NCBI GenBank assembly: GCA_016926695.1
Contig: JAFGOB010000067.1
Span: 1 to 39,835, forward strand
From: Dehalococcoidales bacterium
GTDB taxonomy: Bacteria; Chloroflexota; Dehalococcoidia; Dehalococcoidales; UBA3254
Length of the DNA: 39,835 nt
Direction of reading: 5' to 3'
The notes under the pieces are model-generated. The model had not been told where the DNA came from, did not search any database, and saw only the letters and a program-made list of their open reading frames with translations. Shown piece by piece: positions 14,676 through 28,975 of this stretch. Position numbers and translations under genes: made by a program. Position 1 is the first letter of the stretch. Each line of letters starts with the position of its first letter.

Positions 14676-15875
14676 TTATGATCCGGTCAGGCGGGAAAAA
14701 GCCTCGTTCTCCACCCGGCGCAGGACTTCCTGAAGCGGGATCTTTTTTTCCCGGGCAATAAGCCGGCAGTCTTCATATTCGGGAGAAACGGCCAGCATCT
14801 TACCTGCATACCGCTTGACCTTGACCCTCACCCGGCCGAGGCTGGAATCGAACTCCCTGATTTCCCTCCGGGTGATATGCCTGGTCACCGGTCTGATCCT
14901 TATGCCCAATGTTGAAGTTTCACGCAGAATGGTCTCCACCAGGACGGACTCAGCCTCTGCCGGGCACAATACGCTGAGCAGGACGGCAGGGCGGTTTTTT
15001 TTCATCTGAATAGGTGTGAACCAGACGTCCGCGGCTTGCTCCGCGAACAGTTTGTCCATCAGGTAACCGTAGACCTGGGGGTTCATATCATCGATATTGG
15101 TTTCCAGCAGCACCAGGTTTTCATTCTGGAAAACGTGTTCTCCTTGTCCTATCCAGACACGCAGGACGTTCGGCCATTCGCCGAAATCTTTACTTCCCGC
15201 CCCGTACCCGCTTTTTTCCAGTACAAGATCGGGCCGCCTGAAGGTACACAGCGAGGAAATGAGCGCCGCACCAGTAGGGGTAACCAGCTCACCCTGTACC
15301 TGTTCCGGACCGGGGAAATCCGTTACCGGGGCTCCGGCAGCGGAAAGCAATTGCAGGGCTGCCGGAACGGGTACCGGCAGTGTTCCATGTTGGGTAGTGA
15401 TATGACCGCTGCCCAGGGGCAGAGCGGAAGAGTAACAGCTTTCAATTTGCAATATTTCCAGTGCCAGGACGGACCCTACAATATCGATTATGGAGTCCAC
15501 GGCGCCGACTTCGTGAAAATGCACCCTGTCAAGCGGCACTCCGTGAATTTTCGCTTCGGCTTCACCCAGTTGCCGGAACACGGACCCGCTGACCTTTTTT
15601 ACACGCTCCGAAAGCCTGCTGTCATCGATCATTTCGAGTATGTCCGACAGCAAACGTTCATGCTGGTGTATCCGGTCCTCCAGTATCACATCGAACTTGG
15701 TGGCTGAGATGGCTGATCGTTTGACCTTTTGAGTGGAAAGCCTGTATCCTTCCAGTCCCAGGCTTTTCAGCCCGTCTGCCAGGGCTTCCAGGGAAAGACC
15801 CGTGTCCAGTAAAGCTCCCAGTACCATATCTCCGCTGCAGCCAGAAAAACAGTCGAAATACGCAATCCTAGACAT
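14676..15875 (-). CDS. larC: Nickel-pincer cofactor biosynthesis protein LarC
   Basis: LarC inserts nickel into the pincer cofactor (a CTP-dependent cyclometallase step). The protein has 399 residues in one frame, unlike Lactobacillus where larC1/larC2 are joined by a programmed frameshift. The N-terminus FDCFSGCSGDMVLGAL, the VDRVHFHEVGAVDSIIDI segment and the C-terminal TNIDDMNPQ motif all fit the family. The start ATG follows GGGGAGAGG. It is on the same strand as larE/larB but 618 bases downstream, so it may have its own promoter. Identification strong; the partner enzyme using the cofactor is not in the window. Confidence 0.93.
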   Translation of the reverse strand: MSRIAYFDCFSGCSGDMVLGALLDTGLSLEALADGLKSLGLEGYRLSTQKVKRSAISATKFDVILEDRIHQHERLLSDILEMIDDSRLSERVKKVSGSVFRQLGEAEAKIHGVPLDRVHFHEVGAVDSIIDIVGSVLALEILQIESCYSSALPLGSGHITTQHGTLPVPVPAALQLLSAAGAPVTDFPGPEQVQGELVTPTGAALISSLCTFRRPDLVLEKSGYGAGSKDFGEWPNVLRVWIGQGEHVFQNENLVLLETNIDDMNPQVYGYLMDKLFAEQAADVWFTPIQMKKNRPAVLLSVLCPAEAESVLVETILRETSTLGIRIRPVTRHITRREIREFDSSLGRVRVKVKRYAGKMLAVSPEYEDCRLIAREKKIPLQEVLRRVENEAFSRLTGS

Positions 15876-16493
15876 CTCGATCCTCTCCCCGCTTTTCTTT
15901 TACTCTCTTCAGAAACATCTCAAACTTAAAATCATTGTGTGTAATATGCTTCGTCGCTGCACTTTTCTAAATGAGTGAACCTCCCCAACACAGCGGGAAG
16001 GTACAGGTTTTTTTATTAGCTGAACCGGCTTTCCACAGACGTACACTGATGGAAATCACTACACTCGTCCTGGGGACTCGTTCGTAATGACAGAATGCAC
16101 CGTTATCATTTGTCATGGCGAGCCTCACCAGGTCCTTTCTCTCACCCTCGTGATCGGCGTCGCCATCTCAATACGTGTATAAGCCTGAATATCGGCTTTC
16201 CATTGAACCAAAAACCATCCATTCTTAGCCCGATAGCTTCCCGGACGGAGACTCCACAATAGCAGTTTTCGTAATAATTGTCCATTCTGGCTTGCAGCCA
16301 GCACCACGAAGTAGAAAATCCTTTTCCCTCTCTCCACTTTCCTCGCCCCTATTCCTAAATTCGCCGCAGCGAATAGGATGGCGGGTACCCTTTGGGTGCC
16401 GAGGAATCAGAAGGGGAGACAATAAAGATCTGTTTTCGGGGTAATCTCAACTTAAAAGATACAGTTCCGATATCGAAAGACCGGTGAATGATT
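15876..16493. other. 618-bp gene-free gap between larE and larC
   Basis: No ORF here looks like a protein: the short minus-strand frames at 16125-16422 are rich in Arg/Ser/Gly and have no ribosome site. The middle holds a dispersed-repeat-like inverted repeat (16082-16121). Near the larE end lies CGATATCG, and near 16380-16410 there is a short imperfect repeat (GGGTACCC...GGGTGCC). The rest looks like non-coding or decayed DNA. Confidence 0.5.
16082..16121. repeat. Imperfect inverted repeat, dispersed-repeat remnant
   Basis: TCGTAATGACA (16082-16092) and TGTCATGGCGA (16111-16121) are inverted copies matching at 9 of 11 positions with an 18-nt spacer. The GTCAT(T/G)GCGAG core is like a short intergenic repeat common in several bacterial genomes, so this is read as a remnant of such an element. 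Confidence 0.4.
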
Positions 16494-17315
16494 TTATTCC
16501 GGGTTTTGCCTGCCGATAGCGGCATTCAGACTGCCGGTATGGTAGCCGCTGAGGTCCAGGGTAACATAGAGATAGCCCAGCCCTTTGAGCTTTTCATTTA
16601 TTTCATTACGCGTATCATCATCAAACACCAGCGGTATGTCTTTCTCTTCGACCTCGATGCTGGCGATCTCACCATGGTGCCTTAAACGGACCTGCTTGAA
16701 TCCCAGATTGTGCAGAACGTTCTCCGCTGCGGCGATTTTTTCCAGGGTCCCGGGTGTGATCTCCGTCCCGTAGGGAATACGCGAAGCCAGGCAGGGAGAA
16801 GAGGGTTTATCCCAGGTCGGCAGGCCTGCCAGACGTGACAGGTGACGGATCTCTTCTTTCTCCAGTCCGGCTTCAACCAGCGGGCTGCGGACTTCCGCTT
16901 CCCGGCAGGCCTTCATGCCCGGACGGTAGTCCTGCAAGTCGTTCCGGTTGCTGCCGTCGGCTATCCACGCCAGTCCCTCTTTTTCAGCGGTTCTCTTCAG
17001 TTTTTCAAGAAGACCCTGCTTGCAATAATAACAGCGTTCCGGGGTATTGGAGATAAACCCGGGGTCCTCCATTTCATCCGTTTCAATCACCTGCAAACGC
17101 AGCCCCAGCTTTTGGGCTGTCAGCCGGGCTTCATCCAGTTCCGACGGCGGGCATAGGGCTGAATGGCCGAAAACAGCCAGGGTTTTATCCCCCAGGACCT
17201 GGCTGGCCGTGAACGCCAGGAAGGTGCTGTCCGTACCTCCTGAGAAGGAGACCAGCACGCTCCCCATTTCTCCGATAATATCCTTCAACCGTTCCAGTTT
17301 TTCTTGGCTGTTCAT
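16494..17315 (-). CDS. larE: Sulfur transferase LarE (nickel-pincer cofactor)
   Basis: LarE is a PP-loop ATP-pyrophosphatase that adenylylates the P2CMN intermediate and donates sulfur to make its two thiocarboxylates. The 273-residue protein has the PP-loop SGGTDST at residues 25-31, CYYC at 95-98 and PCLASRIPYG with Cys175, the position of the sacrificial cysteine in the Lactobacillus enzyme. With C95, C98 and C175 it could alternatively bind an iron-sulfur cluster, as some LarE do, and work catalytically; that cannot be decided here. Its ATG overlaps the larB stop codon (ATGA), so the two are translationally coupled. Confidence 0.93.
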   Translation of the reverse strand: MNSQEKLERLKDIIGEMGSVLVSFSGGTDSTFLAFTASQVLGDKTLAVFGHSALCPPSELDEARLTAQKLGLRLQVIETDEMEDPGFISNTPERCYYCKQGLLEKLKRTAEKEGLAWIADGSNRNDLQDYRPGMKACREAEVRSPLVEAGLEKEEIRHLSRLAGLPTWDKPSSPCLASRIPYGTEITPGTLEKIAAAENVLHNLGFKQVRLRHHGEIASIEVEEKDIPLVFDDDTRNEINEKLKGLGYLYVTLDLSGYHTGSLNAAIGRQNPE

Positions 17316-18127
17316 TTATCGCTGTCGTTCCCGCCGGCCTGTAAGTTAATCATGGCTGCCATATAGCCGGCCCCGAAACCGTTGTCTATGTTGACCACAG
17401 CCACTCCCGGAGCGCAGCTATTCAGCATGGTTAAAAGGGGCGCCAGGCCCTGAAAGCTGGCTCCGTAGCCTACACTGGTAGGCACCGCAATAATGGGTTT
17501 TGAGACCAGGCCGCCTAGAACGCTGGGCAAAGCGCCCTCCATGCCCGCTGCCACCACCAGCACACGCATTTCCCGCATGCCGGGAAGTATATCAAAGAGC
17601 CGGTGCAGGCCGGCTACTCCTATATCAAATATCCTTTCCACCCTGTTGCCCATAACTTCGGCCGTTACCGCCGCCTCTTCGGCAACGGGAATATCAGCCG
17701 TGCCCCCTGTCAGCACGGCTATGCCTGTTCGCAGGGACGTTTCCGTATGACGGGTAAATACGATAGTCCGGGCGACCGGATTATACCGCACCCCAGCCAG
17801 TTGGCCCTCCAGGGCCTGAAAGGCCTCGGGCGATGCGTGGGTGATCAGCAGCCGGTCGGCGTGTCCGGCAATCCGAAGGGCAATATCCGTAATCTGGCCT
17901 ACCGTTTTGCCCCTGCCGAAAACTACTTCGGGAAAGGCAGCGCGCAGACCGCGATGATGATCGATCCTGGCAAAGTCCAGGTTTTCATAGGGAAGTATGC
18001 TCAGCTCCTCTATCGCCGCTGAAACAGTGAGTTCACCCGATTTTACCTTATTCAGCGTTTGAGTCAGCCACTCCCCCATCTGCGGGAAGCCTGTTCCACT
18101 TTTACGTCTGGCTGCTTTTCCGGGCAT
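17312..18127 (-). CDS. larB: Pyridinium-3,5-biscarboxylic acid mononucleotide synthase LarB
   Basis: LarB carboxylates the nicotinate ring of nicotinic acid adenine dinucleotide and hydrolyses it, the first step of nickel-pincer cofactor synthesis. The C-terminal half is PurE-like: VVAAGMEGALPSVLGGL and VPTSVGYGAS are its binding segments, and the N-terminal half includes LDFARIDHHRGLRAAFPEVVFGRGK in two parts. The start at ATG 18127 (271 residues) is preferred because GAGGA sits 5 nt upstream; the in-frame ATG at 18139 has no ribosome site. It is followed by larE with a 4-nt overlap. The substrate-selective catalytic residues were not checked. Confidence 0.92.
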   Translation of the reverse strand: MPGKAARRKSGTGFPQMGEWLTQTLNKVKSGELTVSAAIEELSILPYENLDFARIDHHRGLRAAFPEVVFGRGKTVGQITDIALRIAGHADRLLITHASPEAFQALEGQLAGVRYNPVARTIVFTRHTETSLRTGIAVLTGGTADIPVAEEAAVTAEVMGNRVERIFDIGVAGLHRLFDILPGMREMRVLVVAAGMEGALPSVLGGLVSKPIIAVPTSVGYGASFQGLAPLLTMLNSCAPGVAVVNIDNGFGAGYMAAMINLQAGGNDSDK

Positions 18128-18218
18128 TGTATTCCTCATCTGCTAAAACTATATACAGACTATATTATATACCAGAGCTTCAATACAAATCCGATGATGT
18201 TTTGGTTTCTTTTTCCAT

Positions 18219-19007
18219 TTAACGTTTCAAGCCGCTATACAGTCCGTACCCGAAATACTCAAACAGGCCAAAAATACTGCGGGGAACGGAGATTGCTTCC
18301 CAGGTAAATTTCCTGGCGGCATGGTCTGTGAGAAGCATCTGAAAATAGCCGCACCAGGCTTTTACGAATTCAAGAAACTCGATCTGCCTGACTTCCTCCG
18401 TCCACTGTTCAATCGCACCGGTTTTGTAGATCGCGGCCGTAATCTCCTGCAATCCGGAACTTTCCAGCAATCCCTTCCAGCCGCTGCCGTCGCGGAATTC
18501 AGCATCCATTATGCGGGAGAGGTATGCGGCCAGGTCTTCAGGCGGTGTCCGCAGCCAGGTGACCTCGTTGATGCCGAGATACCCTCCGGGCTTTATTACC
18601 CTCCTGTATTCGTTTATTGCCCTGGGTTTGTCTGGTACAAAGGCATTTACTGACTCACAAATGACTGCATTGAAAGAGTTGTCATCAAATGGAAGCTCCT
18701 GCGCATCGGCAGTGCGGAATTCAACCCTCTTATCGAGACCTGCTTTCCCGGCTCTTGCTATCGAGCGGTCAACCATCGCGGCCAAGAGGTCGACTCCCGT
18801 TACTCTACAGCCGTAATTTTTAGCCAGGTAGCATGCACTTACGCCTGTACCGCAGCCTACCACCAGTACACGATTATCCCGTTCAACCCGGCACAGCTCG
18901 ATAAGCTTTCCGGTGGCTTTCAGTCCCCCCATATGTTTGGTCATCCCCCAACTGGCCTGGACCTGAAAATAGGGATTTTTGTCTGAAGACTGTCTTTTGC
19001 TGTCCAT
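18219..19007 (-). CDS. Class I SAM-dependent methyltransferase
   Basis: The 262-residue protein has the SAM-binding motif I VLVVGCGTG (about 48-56), an acidic post-I residue in VTGVDLLAAM, motif TADAQELPFDDNSF and a C-terminal KPGGYLGINEVTW typical of UbiE/Methyltransf_11 enzymes. Substrate not identifiable. ATG 19007 has a weak AGGG site. Its promoter region carries a striking 10-bp dyad that would overlap both -35 and -10, so it is probably regulated by a DNA-binding repressor. The tail (residues 185-262) has no recognised domain. Confidence 0.85.
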   Translation of the reverse strand: MDSKRQSSDKNPYFQVQASWGMTKHMGGLKATGKLIELCRVERDNRVLVVGCGTGVSACYLAKNYGCRVTGVDLLAAMVDRSIARAGKAGLDKRVEFRTADAQELPFDDNSFNAVICESVNAFVPDKPRAINEYRRVIKPGGYLGINEVTWLRTPPEDLAAYLSRIMDAEFRDGSGWKGLLESSGLQEITAAIYKTGAIEQWTEEVRQIEFLEFVKAWCGYFQMLLTDHAARKFTWEAISVPRSIFGLFEYFGYGLYSGLKR

Positions 19008-20428: not shown

Positions 20429-20490
20429 TTGACAATAATCTTTCGGGGTAGTAAAATATGCGTATAACCGCATACACGCAACTATGCATA
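20429..20490 (+). promoter_or_regulatory. Promoter and ArsR-type operator before the permease
   Basis: TTGACA (20429-20434) and TAAAAT (20452-20457) are exactly 17 nt apart, a near-consensus promoter. The dyad TATGCG-N6-CGCATA (20457-20474) overlaps the -10 and start site, followed by the palindrome TATGCATA (20483-20490). The stretch GCATACACG (20470-20478) recurs with one change before the arsR-like gene (GCGTACACG, 21838-21846), suggesting one repressor controls both. Confidence 0.6.
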
Positions 20491-20528
20491 TAGATGCTCG
20501 AATAATCGGCAGATAAAGGGTTCGCTTG

Positions 20529-21563
20529 ATGGATATAGTCCTGGATATTCTCCTGGGAGGCTGGAACGGCCTGGTCAGTTATCTCTCTGCCCATGTCATT
20601 ACCTGCCTGGTCCCGGCTCTGTTTATTGCCGGTGCTATTTCGGTATTCGTTTCACAGGCGGCTATTCTCAAGTATTTCGGACCCCAGGCCAACAAGTTCC
20701 AGTCCTACAGTATAGCTTCGGTATCCGGTGCAATCCTGGCAGTCTGTTCCTGTACCGTTCTCCCGCTGTTTGCCGGAATATATAAACGCGGAGCGGGACT
20801 GGGTCCGGCAATCGCATTCCTGTTTTCCGGACCGGCCATCAACATACTGGCAATTGTATATTCAGCCAGGCTGCTGGGCTATGACATAGGATTAGCCCGA
20901 GCGGTTGCTGCGATAGCTTTTGCGGGTATCGCAGGCTTGATTATGGCTCTCATCTATCGAAAAGAGGAGTCCCGGGCTGATGCCAGGGCCTTTGCGATGA
21001 TGACCGCTGATCCGGGGGGTAAGAGCATCTGGCTGCAGGTACTCTTTGTAGGGACCCTGGTTGTCATACTGGTAGTTACTGCTGCAAAGATCTGGATTGC
21101 AACGGGTATCTGTGTGGCAATCCTTGGTATCATACTATGGCGCTGGTTCAGCAAAGATGAAGTCATCCAGTGGCTTAAGGAAACCTGGCATTTTACCCGC
21201 CTGGTTGTTCCCTGGCTGCTGGTTGGAGTATTCATCGCGGGTATTTTAACGGTGGTTATTCCCCAATCTTTTATAGTGCAGTTTGTGGGAGATAATACGC
21301 TTTTAAGTAACTTGATAGCCTCTCTTTTCGGGGCTTTGATGTATTTTGCCACGCTTACCGAGGTGCCGATCATCAGGGCTTTCATGGACCTGGGTATGGA
21401 CCAAGGGCCGGCTCTGTCCCTGCTCATGGCTGGTCCCGCTCTTTCCTTGCCCAGTATGCTGGTGATTCGGAAAATCATAGGGACAAAAAAGATGCTCACA
21501 TATGTAGGTTTGGTGGCCGTCATGGCGACTGTAACAGGTTATGTTTTTGGTTTGATAGGTTAG
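20529..21563 (+). CDS. ArsP/DUF318-type permease
   Basis: The 344-residue membrane protein belongs to the PF03773 (ArsP_1) permease family. It has about 8-10 hydrophobic segments and the signature CSCTVLPLFAGIYKRGAG followed by FLFSGPAINILAI, where the CSC cysteines lie at the start of a helix, as in ArsP-type exporters of methylarsenite or related organoarsenicals; other members move unknown thiol-reactive metal compounds. A second GPALSLP motif near the C-terminus shows an internal repeat. ATG 20529 has AAAGGG upstream and is preferred to the TTG three bases earlier. Its promoter carries ArsR-like dyads, and an ArsR gene and thioredoxin-like genes lie directly downstream. Substrate inferred from family and context only. 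Confidence 0.85.
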   Translation: MDIVLDILLGGWNGLVSYLSAHVITCLVPALFIAGAISVFVSQAAILKYFGPQANKFQSYSIASVSGAILAVCSCTVLPLFAGIYKRGAGLGPAIAFLFSGPAINILAIVYSARLLGYDIGLARAVAAIAFAGIAGLIMALIYRKEESRADARAFAMMTADPGGKSIWLQVLFVGTLVVILVVTAAKIWIATGICVAILGIILWRWFSKDEVIQWLKETWHFTRLVVPWLLVGVFIAGILTVVIPQSFIVQFVGDNTLLSNLIASLFGALMYFATLTEVPIIRAFMDLGMDQGPALSLLMAGPALSLPSMLVIRKIIGTKKMLTYVGLVAVMATVTGYVFGLIG

Positions 21564-21583
21564 TAGTAAATGAAAAGGGGATT

Positions 21584-21802
21584 ATGGGAACCTGTAACTT
21601 GAACCGAGCAGCTTCAAGCAGCCATAAATTGACGTTTCTTGCCGGCAGAAGAGACAGAGATAATACAGATATGGAAAAGAGATGGCATGGAATATTTCCA
21701 GACAGACAGGGGATGCCCAGTATCCTGTATAACCGTTTTTATTTTGAGCATGGATACTGTTGTCAGAGCAACAACAGGCTGTCTTTAGCAAACTCAGACT
21801 GA
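21584..21802 (+). CDS. Doubtful 72-residue ORF between permease and arsR-like gene
   Basis: An ORF with a decent AAAGGGG ribosome site lies 20 nt after the permease stop. The product is polar, with a few Cys (Cys4, a CC pair near residue 59) and no recognised motif, and its composition does not look like a conserved protein. It could be the coding remnant of a former gene or a small metal-binding peptide. Listed only for completeness. Confidence 0.2.
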   Translation: MGTCNLNRAASSSHKLTFLAGRRDRDNTDMEKRWHGIFPDRQGMPSILYNRFYFEHGYCCQSNNRLSLANSD

Positions 21803-21827
21803 TATTGGTAAATACAAACAAAACCAG

Positions 21828-21843
21828 GTACGCCTGTGCGTAC
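21828..21843 (+). promoter_or_regulatory. Dyad just upstream of the ArsR-like gene
   Basis: GTACGC-N4-GCGTAC is a perfect 6-bp dyad lying directly before the GGAGGTG ribosome site of the arsR-like gene. Together with the related GCATACACG copy before the permease, it is a plausible autoregulatory operator. Confidence 0.5.
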
Positions 21844-21858
21844 ACGGAGGTGAATTTT

Positions 21859-22293
21859 ATGTATAACCTGGTAAAAGCCATGAAAGCGTTATCGGATGAT
21901 ACCCGCCTGAGGATTATTGGTATTATCCTGGAGCGGGAATGCTGCGTTTGCGAGGTGATACAGGCCCTTGACATTTCTCAAACCCGGGCTTCACGAAACC
22001 TGACCATACTATATGACGCCGGTTTTCTCAAGCTAAGGAAAGTTGGGCTGTGGTCTTTGTATTCACTGGATAAAGATGGAATACCGGATTATATGTCCGG
22101 TCTTGTAGAAGCCGTCAGGCTGGCACTGGTTGATAATTCTGTTGCAAAACGGGACAGGGAGAGGCTTAAAGCAGCCATACGCAGCGGAACAGGCTGTGTA
22201 ACCGGAGATAACGGAACCTGCGCAAGAAAATCTATCGTACAAGAAAATATTCCGATAACAAGTCTTCAAGTCTCAGGAATAAAACCGGGGTAA
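21859..22293 (+). CDS. ArsR-family metalloregulator with CVC sensor
   Basis: ArsR/SmtB repressors leave DNA when metal binds. The 144-residue protein has the winged-helix core (residues 5-75), recognition helix TRASRNLTILYDAG, and CCVCE at residues 28-32, which matches the alpha-3 metal site of E. coli ArsR (C32-V-C34-D); the third cysteine of that site (C37) is replaced, but an extra Cys28 precedes it. A C-terminal tail adds two cysteines (CVTGDNGTC, 113-121). ATG 21859 is chosen over an in-frame upstream start because GGAGGTG lies 7 nt before it. It probably represses the permease and itself. As(III) or a similar soft metal is the likely ligand, by inference. Confidence 0.85.
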   Translation: MYNLVKAMKALSDDTRLRIIGIILERECCVCEVIQALDISQTRASRNLTILYDAGFLKLRKVGLWSLYSLDKDGIPDYMSGLVEAVRLALVDNSVAKRDRERLKAAIRSGTGCVTGDNGTCARKSIVQENIPITSLQVSGIKPG

Positions 22294-22440
22294 TAATACG
22301 AAATCAAATTTGTCCCATTGAATTATCGGTCAATTGGTGAATAAGTCCGGAGTTCATTCTGGCAGGGGAAGAGGGTATGGTCTCATATTCAGGACTGTTG
22401 TAGCCCGGAATAAAAGAAAATAAAACCAGGAGGGTGAAGT

Positions 22441-22887
22441 ATGGAAATTGTTGTCATAGGGACGGAGCCGCCATGTATTCGCTGCGCTACTACTTTTAAA
22501 AGGGCAAAAGAAGCAGCTCAAAAATTTTCCGATAAAATTGAGGTGAAGAAGATTGCTATTCACTCGGAAGAAGCTGCCCGCTATGGAAATGTGGAAAGCG
22601 GCCACGGTATAGGTGACGCCGGTAAAATTCAGCCTGATGTTGAGGGAATGAAACGTGTGATGAGTGACATCGATGAACTGGTAAAAGATGAGGCGAAAAA
22701 TGAGAAATTGATTGATGCCAGACTAAAAGAACTGGAAAAAATATTGGTTCCGGTCAAGGAGAAAGCACGCGAAATGGGCTACTTGATGACGCCTGTTCTG
22801 GTTATCAACGGCCAGGTAAAATCCATGGATTATGTGCCGTCCAGGGAAGAAATCCAGGCCTGGATTGAAATTGAAAGAAGACGCTAA
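22441..22887 (+). CDS. Thioredoxin-like protein 1 with helical insertion
   Basis: The first of four small thioredoxin-fold proteins. The N-terminus has active site CIRC (Cys12, Cys15) after a short strand, as in the MTH895/PF13192 redox-active disulfide group, and the cis-Pro loop MTPVLVING (Pro118) comes near the C-terminus. Between them sits an unusual helix-rich, charged insertion of about 65 residues (about 46-113), making it 148 residues instead of about 85. AGGAGGGTG precedes ATG. No signal peptide is seen, so the protein should be cytosolic. It may pass electrons to, or bind, a metal cargo of the permease. Function is inferred from fold and neighbours. Confidence 0.75.
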   Translation: MEIVVIGTEPPCIRCATTFKRAKEAAQKFSDKIEVKKIAIHSEEAARYGNVESGHGIGDAGKIQPDVEGMKRVMSDIDELVKDEAKNEKLIDARLKELEKILVPVKEKAREMGYLMTPVLVINGQVKSMDYVPSREEIQAWIEIERRR

Positions 22888-22913
22888 TACGAGTTAAATA
22901 AATGGAGGAAAAT

Positions 22914-23171
22914 ATGATAAACGTTAAAGTGTTTGGTACAACTCCCCCCTGCGTTAAATGCAAAGAGCTGACCAGAAGAGCGGAAAAAGTGGCCGAAAAA
23001 TACCCCGGCCAGATTGAAGTTGCCAAATTTGATGCCATGTCTGCCGAAGGGGATAAATACTGTGTAATGATGACTCCGACATTGGTGATCAACGACAAGG
23101 TAGTCTCTATCGGTAAATTGCCCGCTGAAAATGAGATTGAAAAAATGATCAAGAAAGTAATGGAGGAATAG
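22914..23171 (+). CDS. Thioredoxin-like protein 2 (CVKC)
   Basis: An 85-residue thioredoxin-fold protein with active site CVKC (Cys13, Cys16) following TTPP, and cis-Pro in MTPTLVIND (Pro55); an extra Cys50 lies five residues before it. The short fold matches MTH895-like PF13192 proteins. The start is taken at 22914 because GGAGG sits 5 nt before it; the ATG at 22902 is inside that ribosome site's upstream part and is less likely. It follows the first paralogue by 26 nt. Confidence 0.78.
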   Translation: MINVKVFGTTPPCVKCKELTRRAEKVAEKYPGQIEVAKFDAMSAEGDKYCVMMTPTLVINDKVVSIGKLPAENEIEKMIKKVMEE

Positions 23172-23176
23172 ATCCA

Positions 23177-23437
23177 ATGGTTAAAATGGAGGTATTCAGC
23201 GGCGATCCACCCTGTCCGGGCTGTGTAGCTATTCTGGCTCTGGCGGATGAATATGCGGAGAAATACCGGGGGAGAGTTGAGGTTAAAAAGTACATCGGAG
23301 AAGAAGGAATGCCCAGGTTTGAGGAGTATAAAATGGTCTGTGTCCCCGCTGTAGTGGTAAATGAGGTAATCAAAATTGAGGGTATCTGTCCCAGCCGGAA
23401 GACCATGGATGCAGCCCTCAGAGAGGGTGGTCTATGA
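23177..23437 (+). CDS. Thioredoxin-like protein 3 (CPGC)
   Basis: An 86-residue paralogue with active site CPGC (Cys13, Cys16), and VCVPAVVVNE in the cis-Pro region (Pro57) preceded by Cys55. A further Cys71 lies in GICPS near the C-terminus, a feature shared with the next protein but not the first two. The GGAGG just after the previous gene's codons serves as its ribosome site with about 10 nt spacing. It overlaps the next gene by 4 nt. Confidence 0.78.
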   Translation: MVKMEVFSGDPPCPGCVAILALADEYAEKYRGRVEVKKYIGEEGMPRFEEYKMVCVPAVVVNEVIKIEGICPSRKTMDAALREGGL

Positions 23438-23697
23438 GCAAGATAAAAATTGAAGCCTTCCTCTCGGTTCCCGCCTGCTCGGGCGGAGTGAGCCTGATGC
23501 GCTTGCTCAGGGAAATCGAGCAGGAATATGGGGACAAGGTCGAGATTACCATCAACAAAGGGCGCAACGATCTCTTTGAGAAAAACAATCTAAGCTCGGC
23601 TCCAGCCCTGATTATCGGCGAACTGGTCAGGTTTATGGGAGTATGCCCGGATAAAGAGTCCCTGGTAGCAGCATTGAAGGAGTCAGGCCTGGACTGA
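23434..23697 (+). CDS. Thioredoxin-like protein 4 (degenerate CSGG)
   Basis: An 87-residue paralogue in which the active site reads CSGG: the first cysteine (Cys15) is kept, the second is Gly18. Cys71 in GVCPD and the cis-Pro loop SAPALIIGE (Pro57) are kept. It can no longer form a CxxC disulfide, so it may act by mixed disulfides, pair with Cys71, or only bind cargo. ATG overlaps the stop codon of gene 3 (ATGA), so the two are translationally coupled. No signal peptide is seen. Confidence 0.75.
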   Translation: MSKIKIEAFLSVPACSGGVSLMRLLREIEQEYGDKVEITINKGRNDLFEKNNLSSAPALIIGELVRFMGVCPDKESLVAALKESGLD

Positions 23698-24613: not shown

Positions 24614-24642
24614 TTGACCATATTACTAAAGTGGAATATAAT
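24614..24642 (+). promoter_or_regulatory. purF promoter
   Basis: TTGACC (24614-24619) and TATAAT (24637-24642) lie exactly 17 nt apart, about 53 nt upstream of the purF start. Confidence 0.65.
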
Positions 24643-24694: not shown

Positions 24695-26080
24695 GTGCGC
24701 GAAGCGTGCGGCATTTTCGGAGTGTATGCCCCAGGTGAAGACGTAGCCCGGATCACTTTCTTCGCCTTATTCGCTCTCCAACACCGCGGCCAGGAAAGTG
24801 CTGGTATCGCTACCTCCGATGGAAAGAAATTACAGGTATATTCCCGCATGGGACTGGTTTCACAGGTATTCAGCGAGGAGTCGTTAAGTCAACTCTCCGG
24901 AGATATCGCCATAGGTCACAACCGCTACTCTACTACCGGTTCCTCCCGTATTAACAATGCTCAACCTATCGTTGTCGGAAGCGGCGAAAATATCATAGCC
25001 GTGGCCCATAACGGCAACATCGTTAATTCCGAACCCCTTGGCAAAGAGCTCAGGGAGATGGGTTACACCTTCAATAGTTCTACCGATTCCGAGATTATCG
25101 CCAACCTTATCCATTCCGCTCCGGGCCAGGGCTGGCTGGAAAAAATCCGCTATGCCATGCGGCGTATCAAGGGCGCTTATTCTCTGGTTATCCTGACCAG
25201 GGACAGGCTTTTCACTGTACGCGATCCTTTTGGTGTACGTCCTCTTTGCCTGGGAAAAATCAACGGTCACTGGGTAGTAGCCTCCGAAAGCTGCGCTCTG
25301 GACCATATCGGTGCTATTTTTGTGCGGGAAATCGATCCGGGAGAAATCGTGGAAATCGATTCCGACGGCGCAAAAAGTTACCATGAGATACTGGAGAGAA
25401 AAGCTACCTGTATCTTTGAGTATATCTATTTTTCCCGTCCTGACAGTATTATTGACGGACGTCTGGTCTATCTCGCACGTCAGGCCATGGGAGCCCGGCT
25501 TGCCGAGGAATACCCGGTCCAGGCCGACCTGGTTGTGGGAGTTCCGGATTCAGCTACCGTGGCAGGCATCGGCTATGCCCAGAGGTCCGGTATACCCCAC
25601 GGAGAGGGACTGGTTAAAAACCGCTATGTCGGACGAACCTTTATCAGTCCCGACCAGCGTATGAGAGACCTGGGGGTCAAGCTGAAATTCAATCCCCTGC
25701 CTGATATCCTGCACGAAAAACGGGTTGTACTGGTAGACGACAGTATAGTACGCGGCACCACTACTCCCAAGGTGATTAATCTCCTGCGTAAAGCCGGGGC
25801 TAAAGAGGTCCATATGCGTGTTTGCGCTCCTCCTATCATACATCCCTGCTTCTTCGGCGTGGATATGGCTTCCCGCTGGGAGTTGATCGCCGCCAGTAAG
25901 TCGATTGATCAAGTCAGGCAATATATCGGGGCGGATTCCCTGGGATATATCAGCATTGAAGGACTGGTCAGCTCCATCGGACTGCCGGTCGATAATTTCT
26001 GCATGGCCTGCTTTACCGGCGATTATCCTATCCCGGTCCAGCTCGAAATGGACAAACTGGCCCTGGAAGCCAGGCCCTGA
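24695..26080 (+). CDS. purF: Amidophosphoribosyltransferase (Fe-S type)
   Basis: PurF makes phosphoribosylamine from PRPP and glutamine, the first committed step of purine synthesis. The 461-residue enzyme begins MREAC; the short propeptide would be removed to expose catalytic Cys5 (CGIFG) of the N-terminal glutaminase domain. The PRPP motif VLVDDSIVRGTT lies near residue 350. Four cysteines (KATCIFEY, HPCFFGVD, and FCMAC near the end) match the [4Fe-4S] ligands of the Bacillus-type enzyme, which fits an anaerobe. The start is GTG at 24695 with AGAGG upstream. purM follows 163 bases later. Confidence 0.96.
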   Translation: MREACGIFGVYAPGEDVARITFFALFALQHRGQESAGIATSDGKKLQVYSRMGLVSQVFSEESLSQLSGDIAIGHNRYSTTGSSRINNAQPIVVGSGENIIAVAHNGNIVNSEPLGKELREMGYTFNSSTDSEIIANLIHSAPGQGWLEKIRYAMRRIKGAYSLVILTRDRLFTVRDPFGVRPLCLGKINGHWVVASESCALDHIGAIFVREIDPGEIVEIDSDGAKSYHEILERKATCIFEYIYFSRPDSIIDGRLVYLARQAMGARLAEEYPVQADLVVGVPDSATVAGIGYAQRSGIPHGEGLVKNRYVGRTFISPDQRMRDLGVKLKFNPLPDILHEKRVVLVDDSIVRGTTTPKVINLLRKAGAKEVHMRVCAPPIIHPCFFGVDMASRWELIAASKSIDQVRQYIGADSLGYISIEGLVSSIGLPVDNFCMACFTGDYPIPVQLEMDKLALEARP

Positions 26081-27254: not shown

Positions 27255-27595
27255 TACCCTCTTGTTTATATCACCGGGACGTACCGTTTTGCCCTGATTC
27301 ATTGGTGGGCTTGCTGCGGCATATCATTGAAACCGCGGATTTCTGTTTGTAGCTTCATTCTCAACCCTTCACCCTCAACCCTCGTTGGATAAGGCCGGCA
27401 TCCTCCGTTTACCGCTTTCATGACAACGCTTTTCCGAATTGGTATAATACTAGCATCGTTTTTGATCAGACTGAATTTTTTAGTCACTATTGGATTACCG
27501 GATAACGAATATCAGCCAGTACGTAACAGATAGCGCGCACCACATGTTGCTTCCATGGCTGTCTGTCTGAGAATAAATTGAGGAGCAGAAAGACT
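27255..27595 (+). promoter_or_regulatory. Gene-free stretch with promoter for the URO-D-family gene
   Basis: ATGACA (27420-27425) and TATAAT (27443-27448) are 17 nt apart, a good promoter about 150 bases upstream of the next gene. The stretch before it contains a partial direct repeat (CTCAACCCT near 27360-27380). No convincing ORF is present. Confidence 0.5.
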
Positions 27596-28975
27596 ATGAT
27601 GTTGAGCAGCAGGTCAGGAAAACAGACCGATATTCCGGAGAAATGGAATGAATTTTCTCCCGCGAAGAAGCGCCAGTGGAAGCTTGAAAACTTCCGGAGT
27701 GGGAAGGGTATCGATTTTATCAGTCCCGATGCTAGAGAAGGCTATCAGACCAGGGCCAAGAGGCTGGTGGATGCCTACAACATAGAGGAGCCGGACAGGG
27801 TGCCGGTCAGCTTGCCCATAGGCAACCTGCCGTTTTCCCTCTATGGAGTGAGCCAGCGTACCGCCATGTATGACTATGAGCAGGCGGTGCAGGCCTGCCA
27901 TAAATTCAATGCGCAGTATTCGACCGAACTCGAATATTTTGCCAACCCCTTTACCAACGCTGCCAGGGTGATGGATATTCTAGACTACAAGCTGTATGCC
28001 TGGCCGGGACACGGCCTTCCCGTAAATGCTCCTACCGTCCAGTTCGTTGAGGGGGAATATATGAAGGCCGAGGAATATGACGACCTGATTGACGACCCCA
28101 CCGATTTCTGGTTAAGGACCTACCTTCCCCGTGTATTCGGTGCTTTCGAACCCTTCAGCACCTTCAGCCCCTTAACCAGCATGATCGAGGTTGTATCCCT
28201 TGGTCAATTGGGTGTTCTGGCTGCACCACCTATGCAGGATACGTTGATTAAGATGCTGGAAGCCGGGCGGGAGTATCAGAGGATGATGCAGATCATGGGA
28301 CCGTATGCCGGGCTGGGGTCTTCCAGCGGTTATCCAGTAGCTATGGGCGGCATCTTTGCCAAAGCCCCCTTTGATACCCTGGGCGATACCCTCAGGGGAA
28401 CAGCCCCGCTGATGAAGGACATGTACCGCCGTCCCGATAAAGTGCTGGCAGCCTGCGACAAGATCGCCGACCTGACTATCAAGACTGTACTGCGGTCTCC
28501 CGGAATCACCCGCAGTATTATGGTAATGTATCCTCTCCATAAAGGTGCCGATGGCTGGATGTCCCAAAAGCAATTCGAGACCTTCTACTGGCCTTCCATG
28601 AAAAAGGTCATGGACGCTTTTATCAATGAAGGCCTTATCCAGTACCTGTTCGCTGAAGGCGCCTATAATACCCGTCTGGAGTCCGTCAACGAATTCCCGA
28701 AGGGTTTCGTTACCTGGCTTTTCGACCAGACCGATATGTTCAAAGCCAAAAAGATCCTGGGGGACAAATGCTGTATCCAGGGTAATGTGCCGTCTTCCCT
28801 GATTGTCACCGGTTCGCCCCAGAACGTAAAGGAATATTGTCGCAAGCTGATTGAAGGCTGCGGCAAGGGAGGCGGCTTTGTCCTTGCAGCCGGGGCTGTG
28901 GCTGAGGACCCTAAACTGGAAAATGTGCGAGCCATGATGGAAGCTGTCAGGGAATACGGTGTTTACCGCAAATAG
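27596..28975 (+). CDS. Uroporphyrinogen decarboxylase-family protein (MtaA/methyltransferase-like)
   Basis: The protein fits the URO-D/PF01208 superfamily, whose anaerobe members are mostly cobalamin or coenzyme M methyltransferases rather than heme enzymes. Supporting pieces are PDRVPVS near the N-terminus, HKGADGWMS, and the metal-region DKCCIQGNVPSSLI near residue 400. A true HemE would be about 340-350 residues; this one has about 459, with an N-terminal extension, so a methyltransferase or demethylase role is more likely. ATG 27596 is preferred because AGGAG sits 10 nt upstream; the upstream TTG is inside the ribosome site. ispG follows 45 bases later. Specific substrate unknown. Confidence 0.8.
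   Translation: MMLSSRSGKQTDIPEKWNEFSPAKKRQWKLENFRSGKGIDFISPDAREGYQTRAKRLVDAYNIEEPDRVPVSLPIGNLPFSLYGVSQRTAMYDYEQAVQACHKFNAQYSTELEYFANPFTNAARVMDILDYKLYAWPGHGLPVNAPTVQFVEGEYMKAEEYDDLIDDPTDFWLRTYLPRVFGAFEPFSTFSPLTSMIEVVSLGQLGVLAAPPMQDTLIKMLEAGREYQRMMQIMGPYAGLGSSSGYPVAMGGIFAKAPFDTLGDTLRGTAPLMKDMYRRPDKVLAACDKIADLTIKTVLRSPGITRSIMVMYPLHKGADGWMSQKQFETFYWPSMKKVMDAFINEGLIQYLFAEGAYNTRLESVNEFPKGFVTWLFDQTDMFKAKKILGDKCCIQGNVPSSLIVTGSPQNVKEYCRKLIEGCGKGGGFVLAAGAVAEDPKLENVRAMMEAVREYGVYRK

Follow-up and report, generated by a model that had tools for sequence, protein, structure and literature searches.

In the present work, we examine a block of six genes in a stretch of 39,835 nucleotides from a Dehalococcoidales bacterium (contig JAFGOB010000067.1; the whole stretch is called the window below). 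The block encodes an ArsP-type permease, an ArsR-type regulator and four small thioredoxin-like proteins in a row, called here A, B, C and D. We compare it with related loci in other genomes and with the thiol proteins of published operons. Judged by its sequence, the block appears to be an operon of the ars type, and its constant unit, B-C-D, a conserved thiol module of three proteins.

The gene block and its control region

An earlier note on this DNA had described an ArsP-family permease, a CVC-type ArsR and four thioredoxin-fold genes on one strand, and this description is borne out. All six genes are on the + strand. The permease (20529..21563, 344 residues) passes the curated cut-off of the ArsP_1 family, PF03773, with 271.2 bits against 32.3. 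Its best NCBIfam match is NF033936, the SO_0444 Cu/Zn efflux transporter, with 128.3 bits against a cut-off of 300, and SaoE (NF040736) is likewise below its cut-off (125.7 against 325). The repressor (21859..22293, 144 residues) passes the ArsR/SmtB metalloregulator model NF033788 with 71.5 bits against 55. Its start is most likely the ATG at 21859 instead of the TTG at 21760, because the frames of the relatives start there. The sensor of the E. coli-type ArsR is a three-cysteine As(III) site made up of CVC plus Cys37. The ECCVCEV motif of the present protein holds CVC plus a vicinal cysteine, and there is no cysteine three residues past the CVC.

The four thioredoxin-like genes follow, with the active sites that had been read before. 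Protein A (22441..22887) has CIRC and, in its AlphaFold2 model, a thioredoxin fold with a helical insertion (a 35-residue helix, 67-101). Protein B (22914..23171, 85 residues) has CVKC. Protein C (23177..23437, 86 residues) has CPGC together with Cys55 (in CVP) and Cys71 (in GICPS), and D (23434..23697, 87 residues) has CSGG together with Cys71 (in GVCPD). With the start of B placed by its relatives, most likely at ATG 22914, the gaps of 26 (A-B), 5 (B-C) and -4 nucleotides (C-D) given earlier hold. The permease and arsR are separated by 295 nucleotides, and arsR and A by 147, so that only A-D are tightly packed.

The earlier note had also referred to such genes as PF13192 (Thioredoxin_3). This stands for A, B and C, which score 39.6, 63.9 and 37.5 bits against a cut-off of 24.8, while D, with 24.4 bits, falls short by 0.4. 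Two homologues of D lie on either side of the cut-off, with 25.9 (L030) and 24.1 bits (L001). None of the four proteins reaches the cut-off of 62 of the MTH895/ArsE model TIGR00412 (A 37.0, B 58.5, C 26.9, D 14.6). Against the ArsD model PF06953, with a cut-off of 27, A scores 18.2, and B-D have no match at an E value of 1. The models of SaoE, SaoT, TsoX, TsoC and TsoR all remain below their cut-offs in the block, and the four A-D reading frames contain neither a selenocysteine codon nor an internal stop codon. The AlphaFold2 models of A and C have mean confidence scores (pLDDT) of 92.2 and 94.8, respectively.

The cysteines are well preserved among the closest relatives. We counted them in the best 120 listed proteins of each family, the distant members being left uncounted; the window's own copy, listed among the relatives of D and A, was removed once each. 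The CIRC cysteines of A are kept in 120/120 (best 120 of 246), and the four cysteines of C, namely Cys13, Cys16, Cys55 and Cys71, in 120-121 of 121 rows (best 120 of 1280). In D (best 120 of 330), Cys15 is found in 119/120 and Cys71 in 113/120. A database protein of 245 residues, P0243, reads as a natural A-B fusion; its only source is one metagenome contig, and we therefore take it as no more than a hint.

Ahead of the permease there is a sigma-70-type promoter, TTGACA-17-TAAAAT, at 20429..20457 (+), with 11 of 12 consensus matches. A probable ArsR operator is predicted at 20456..20474 (+), where ATATGCGTATA (20456-20466) overlaps both an inverted repeat, TATGCGTATAACCGCATA (20457-20474), and the end of the -10 box. 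The corresponding motif, ATATGCGYATA, has this single match in the whole window, for which 0.06 matches are expected; the expectation concerns the window only. A similar site precedes the leading arsR in all eight Dehalococcoidia relatives. It matches at 11/11 positions in G002, G302, G300, G303 and G457, at 10/11 in G003 and G285, and at 9/11 in G418, a score that was equalled by 22 of 200 plain base shuffles. In the relatives the motif overlaps a sigma-70-type -10 box or lies at most 20 nucleotides behind it, with promoter scores of 9 to 11 of 12. Only 7 or 8 of 11 positions match ahead of the window's arsR and A, the second arsR copies (G002, G003) and the modules of G806, G755 and G732. 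It should be pointed out that the motif was chosen after inspecting the same upstream regions, so that the scores of the relatives are partly circular and therefore constitute support, not independent evidence. The simple reading is that a repressor site would lie at the front of the operon.

Conservation of B-C-D and its partners

The comparison comprises 13 loci from two phyla, the window included, all selected by the C gene. They were scanned with our own small profiles at an E value of 1e-5, up to 9 kb from C or less where the fetched stretch ends. Order and strand of B-C-D are kept in all 13, although in G300 C is separated from a shortened D by a frame of 332 residues (L026, 7683-8678) that matches nothing in Pfam. 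Most relatives of the triad come from metagenomes.

The block is rare. When B was used for a scan, five loci were obtained, and the block is present in three of these. The C profile matches 2/294 genomes drawn from the class of G003, 7/156 of its order and 5/9 of its family, and the D profile matches exactly the same seven genomes of the order. In the Bacillota, the phylum of G001, C is found in 4/398 genomes, and in the order of G001 in 1/63. PF13192 itself is common, with at least one match in 109 of the 156 genomes of G003's order, but at least three such genes in tandem occur, among the matches listed, only in the seven block-bearing genomes. Because C and D are found in the same 7/156 genomes, as compared to 109/156 for PF13192, and because the order of B-C-D is kept throughout, the grouping goes beyond chance.

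ArsR and ArsP accompany B-C-D on the same strand in 9/13 loci; the contig of G001 (3 kb) is too short to show them. The co-conservation of permease and thioredoxin-like genes, which the note had proposed to check, is seen in these nine loci and fails in G806, G755 and G732. The earlier note had named scattered genes, or genes unlinked to the permease, as evidence against its proposal of a four-protein relay. In part this was borne out, as no same-strand permease accompanies B-C-D of these three Bacillota genomes in the stretch seen. Of that proposal, what stands is a conserved and probably regulated unit in an arsenic context; the number of four is not fixed, since A is present in only 4/13 loci (the window, G457, G001 and G806). 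Six loci (G002, G003, G302, G303, G285 and G418) have an ArsE-type thioredoxin instead. The two never occur in one locus (0/13), and A may therefore stand in for ArsE, occupying its place.

Arsenic genes are found near several of the relatives. ArsF-/ArsG-type genes lie downstream of B-C-D in 5/13 loci, and in L003 and L028, which were scanned for this, both proteins score above the curated cut-offs. In L003 (G003), the arsenite exporter ACR3 is found 3.5 kb ahead of C, with 350.8 bits and over the cut-off. Next to the best permease relatives of G755 and G806 there is an ACR3 (441.3 and 464.6 bits against 282.8), and also an ArsE-type thioredoxin and a DUF2703 protein; by eye, the neighbourhood of the permease relative in G732 follows the same pattern, with ACR3.

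Other recurrent neighbours were seen as well. DGC-domain proteins (PF08859) recur beside these permeases (L030, 6259-6648; L003, 12457-12873; L062, 2565-2939), and DUF169 proteins beside the block (L003, L030, L053). The second permease frame of G002 (L002, 11295-12050) is short, has a stop in its genome match and looks like a decayed copy.

Proposed function and alternatives

We lean, with modest confidence, towards an operon under repressor control that detoxifies a thiol-reactive metalloid, with ArsP-type export and B-C-D as a thiol module; the metalloid is most likely trivalent arsenic or else an organoarsenical. ArsR would occupy the ATATGCGYATA site that follows the promoter at 20429, and binding of the metalloid at its vicinal cysteines would release it. 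The permease, to judge from its family and from the ars neighbours of its relatives, would then export the cargo. A and B, with their ordinary CxxC sites, would probably keep thiols and cargo in the reduced form. C, with four cysteines, and D, with one active-site cysteine and Cys71, would probably hold the metalloid in thiolate complexes and hand it on or buffer it, in much the same way as ArsD. The modelled thioredoxin folds count in favour of such a scheme. Arsenic is our best guess for the cargo, mainly because of the ars neighbours of the relatives (ArsF/ArsG and ACR3). A relay in gene order, which the note had proposed, is possible, the sole grounds being the order itself and the fact that D has no CxxC.

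Several observations weigh against this detoxification scheme. No model names the cargo of the permease, and its match to the Cu/Zn efflux transporter is far below the cut-off. The window has no ACR3 within 9 kb, and a tblastn search with the ArsF and ArsG of L003 (E value 0.01) gave no match in it. D lacks a CxxC in 13/13 loci; the active-site Cys15 is missing in three of them (G001, G457 and G806) and Cys71 in G732, and the D of G300 has lost its front. Cys71 of C is gone in G755 and G732. Furthermore, the number of loci is small, and some of them are closely related. Finally, in G806, G755 and G732, B-C-D has, within the 6-9 kb seen, neither ArsR nor a permease on its own strand, and in the latter two it stands beside a URO-D/MtaA-like methyltransferase.

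The somewhat unlikely, though leading, alternative is that A-D are mainly reductants, through which the cytosolic thioredoxin pool would supply electrons for a reduction, from a pentavalent to a trivalent organoarsenical or at a nitro group, with the permease exporting the product. Nitro-group reduction has been proposed for ArsEFG, and the CxxC sites of A, B and C are consistent with such a role, as is the presence, in five relatives, of genes of the ArsE, ArsF and ArsG types downstream of B-C-D. A reductant role fits poorly with D, which has no CxxC at any of the loci. In addition, no ArsF/ArsG-type gene was found in the stretch seen of the window, G300, G418, G457 and the four Bacillota loci, the contig of G418 ending 76 bases after D and that of G001 being 3 kb long.

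A more specific idea, which we consider unlikely, is that B-C-D is a metallochaperone chain in which B would be the reductant, C the loader, with its four cysteines, and D a non-catalytic carrier with two. It would load ArsP in the Dehalococcoidia and serve a corrinoid-dependent methyl-transfer set, possibly one that demethylates organoarsenicals, in some Bacillota genomes.

To a third possibility we give still less credence, namely that the thiol module B-C-D serves organometal or methyl-transfer chemistry in general; ArsP operons would have taken it up in one lineage and corrinoid methyltransferases in another, and arsenic would be only one of its uses. In its favour, B-C-D of G755 and G732 is surrounded by the methyltransferase, a MIP channel, corrinoid proteins (identified by eye) and thioredoxin-like proteins of the HUIPC family, and no permease was found in the stretch seen. 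One HUIPC-family protein of G755 is over its cut-off (119.4 against 105); here the genes of G755 were scanned with profiles, and those of G732 were matched to them. In G806, A-B-C-D lies between a DUF169 gene and what reads by eye as a TRAP transporter, and another ArsP_1 permease is found about 6 kb away on the opposite strand. In each of these three genomes, a closer permease relative is encoded at another site. The block can therefore stand without ArsR and a permease of its own, and its position beside the methyltransferase means that the module is not tied to the permease. What speaks against a general module is that G755 and G732 look closely related, so that they may represent one event, and that B and C score lower in them, with 82-119 bits as compared to 121-180 in the nine Dehalococcoidia loci (window included). 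The methyltransferase, moreover, is below the MtaA/CmuA cut-off (115.4 against 235.4).

Another soft metal (Cu, Zn, Hg or Sb) as the cargo is very improbable; the SO_0444 transporters are named for Cu/Zn and, among the NCBIfam models, the permease matches NF033936 best, but its score is far below the cut-off and the neighbours in the relatives (ACR3, ArsF and ArsG) are specific to ars.

We now turn to the known systems. Thioredoxin-like genes within ars operons have already been published (PMC2963123). Those operons resemble the present block in encoding small thioredoxin-fold proteins and in having ArsP permeases; they are reported with two thioredoxin-like genes plus CcdA, and with arsC in 7/8 instances, whereas here there is a block of three to four divergent thioredoxin-like genes. 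The ArsEFG-type set (TIGR00412, NF040494, NF040495) is present downstream of B-C-D in five relatives, but the window has no ArsF/ArsG and A-D are below the ArsE cut-off. ArsD is also a thioredoxin-fold protein of arsenic resistance, described as an arsenic metallochaperone (PMC3091736). It differs in that its model, PF06953, is not reached here, and in that the partner would be ArsP rather than the ArsA ATPase. In the SAO and Tso operons there are several genes for selenoproteins, thioredoxin-like ones being tabulated among them (PMC13188914). Like the present block, they have several thioredoxin-like proteins, and SaoE and TsoR are the NCBIfam names of a permease and a regulator; unlike them, A-D have no selenocysteine codon, and the SAO/Tso models remain below their cut-offs. 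ArsP of Campylobacter jejuni exports trivalent organoarsenicals (PMC6205960). What the window permease has in common with it is the ArsP name, by its place in ArsP_1 of Pfam. In titles and abstract openings we found nothing on a permease with at least three tandem thioredoxin-like genes or on a B-C-D triad, the full texts being unchecked for it.

If the scheme is correct, a divergent thioredoxin-fold triad, with one protein having four conserved cysteines and one lacking CxxC, would be a new way of supplying an ArsP-type permease with a toxic metalloid. Metalloid binding and transfer could be measured directly on B, C and D, as these are small and soluble, and B-C-D could be used as a marker triad in metagenomes.

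Neighbouring genes in the window

The block is flanked by tsaD, on the other strand, and by genes for an alpha/beta-hydrolase, PurF (a reading by eye) and PurM. Judged by TsaD, the host of this DNA is nearest to the Dehalococcoidia: the window TsaD is 67-70% identical to those of five of the six Dehalococcoidia genomes compared and 48% to that of the sixth, G457, with G300 and G303 left out; the identity to the four Bacillota genomes is 47-58%. A second strong promoter-like site, TTGACC-17-TATAAT, is found at 24614-24642, ahead of the GTG-started gene at 24695 that we read as purF.

On the - strand, the nickel-pincer cofactor genes larC, larE and larB occupy 14676-18139. The methyltransferase that adjoins them, at 18219-19007, resembles NF045667 (DVU_1556 family) below the cut-off (102.7 against 155). 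Further downstream, at 27578-28975, there is a 465-residue protein in which the URO-D match is confined to the second half (residues 260-460).

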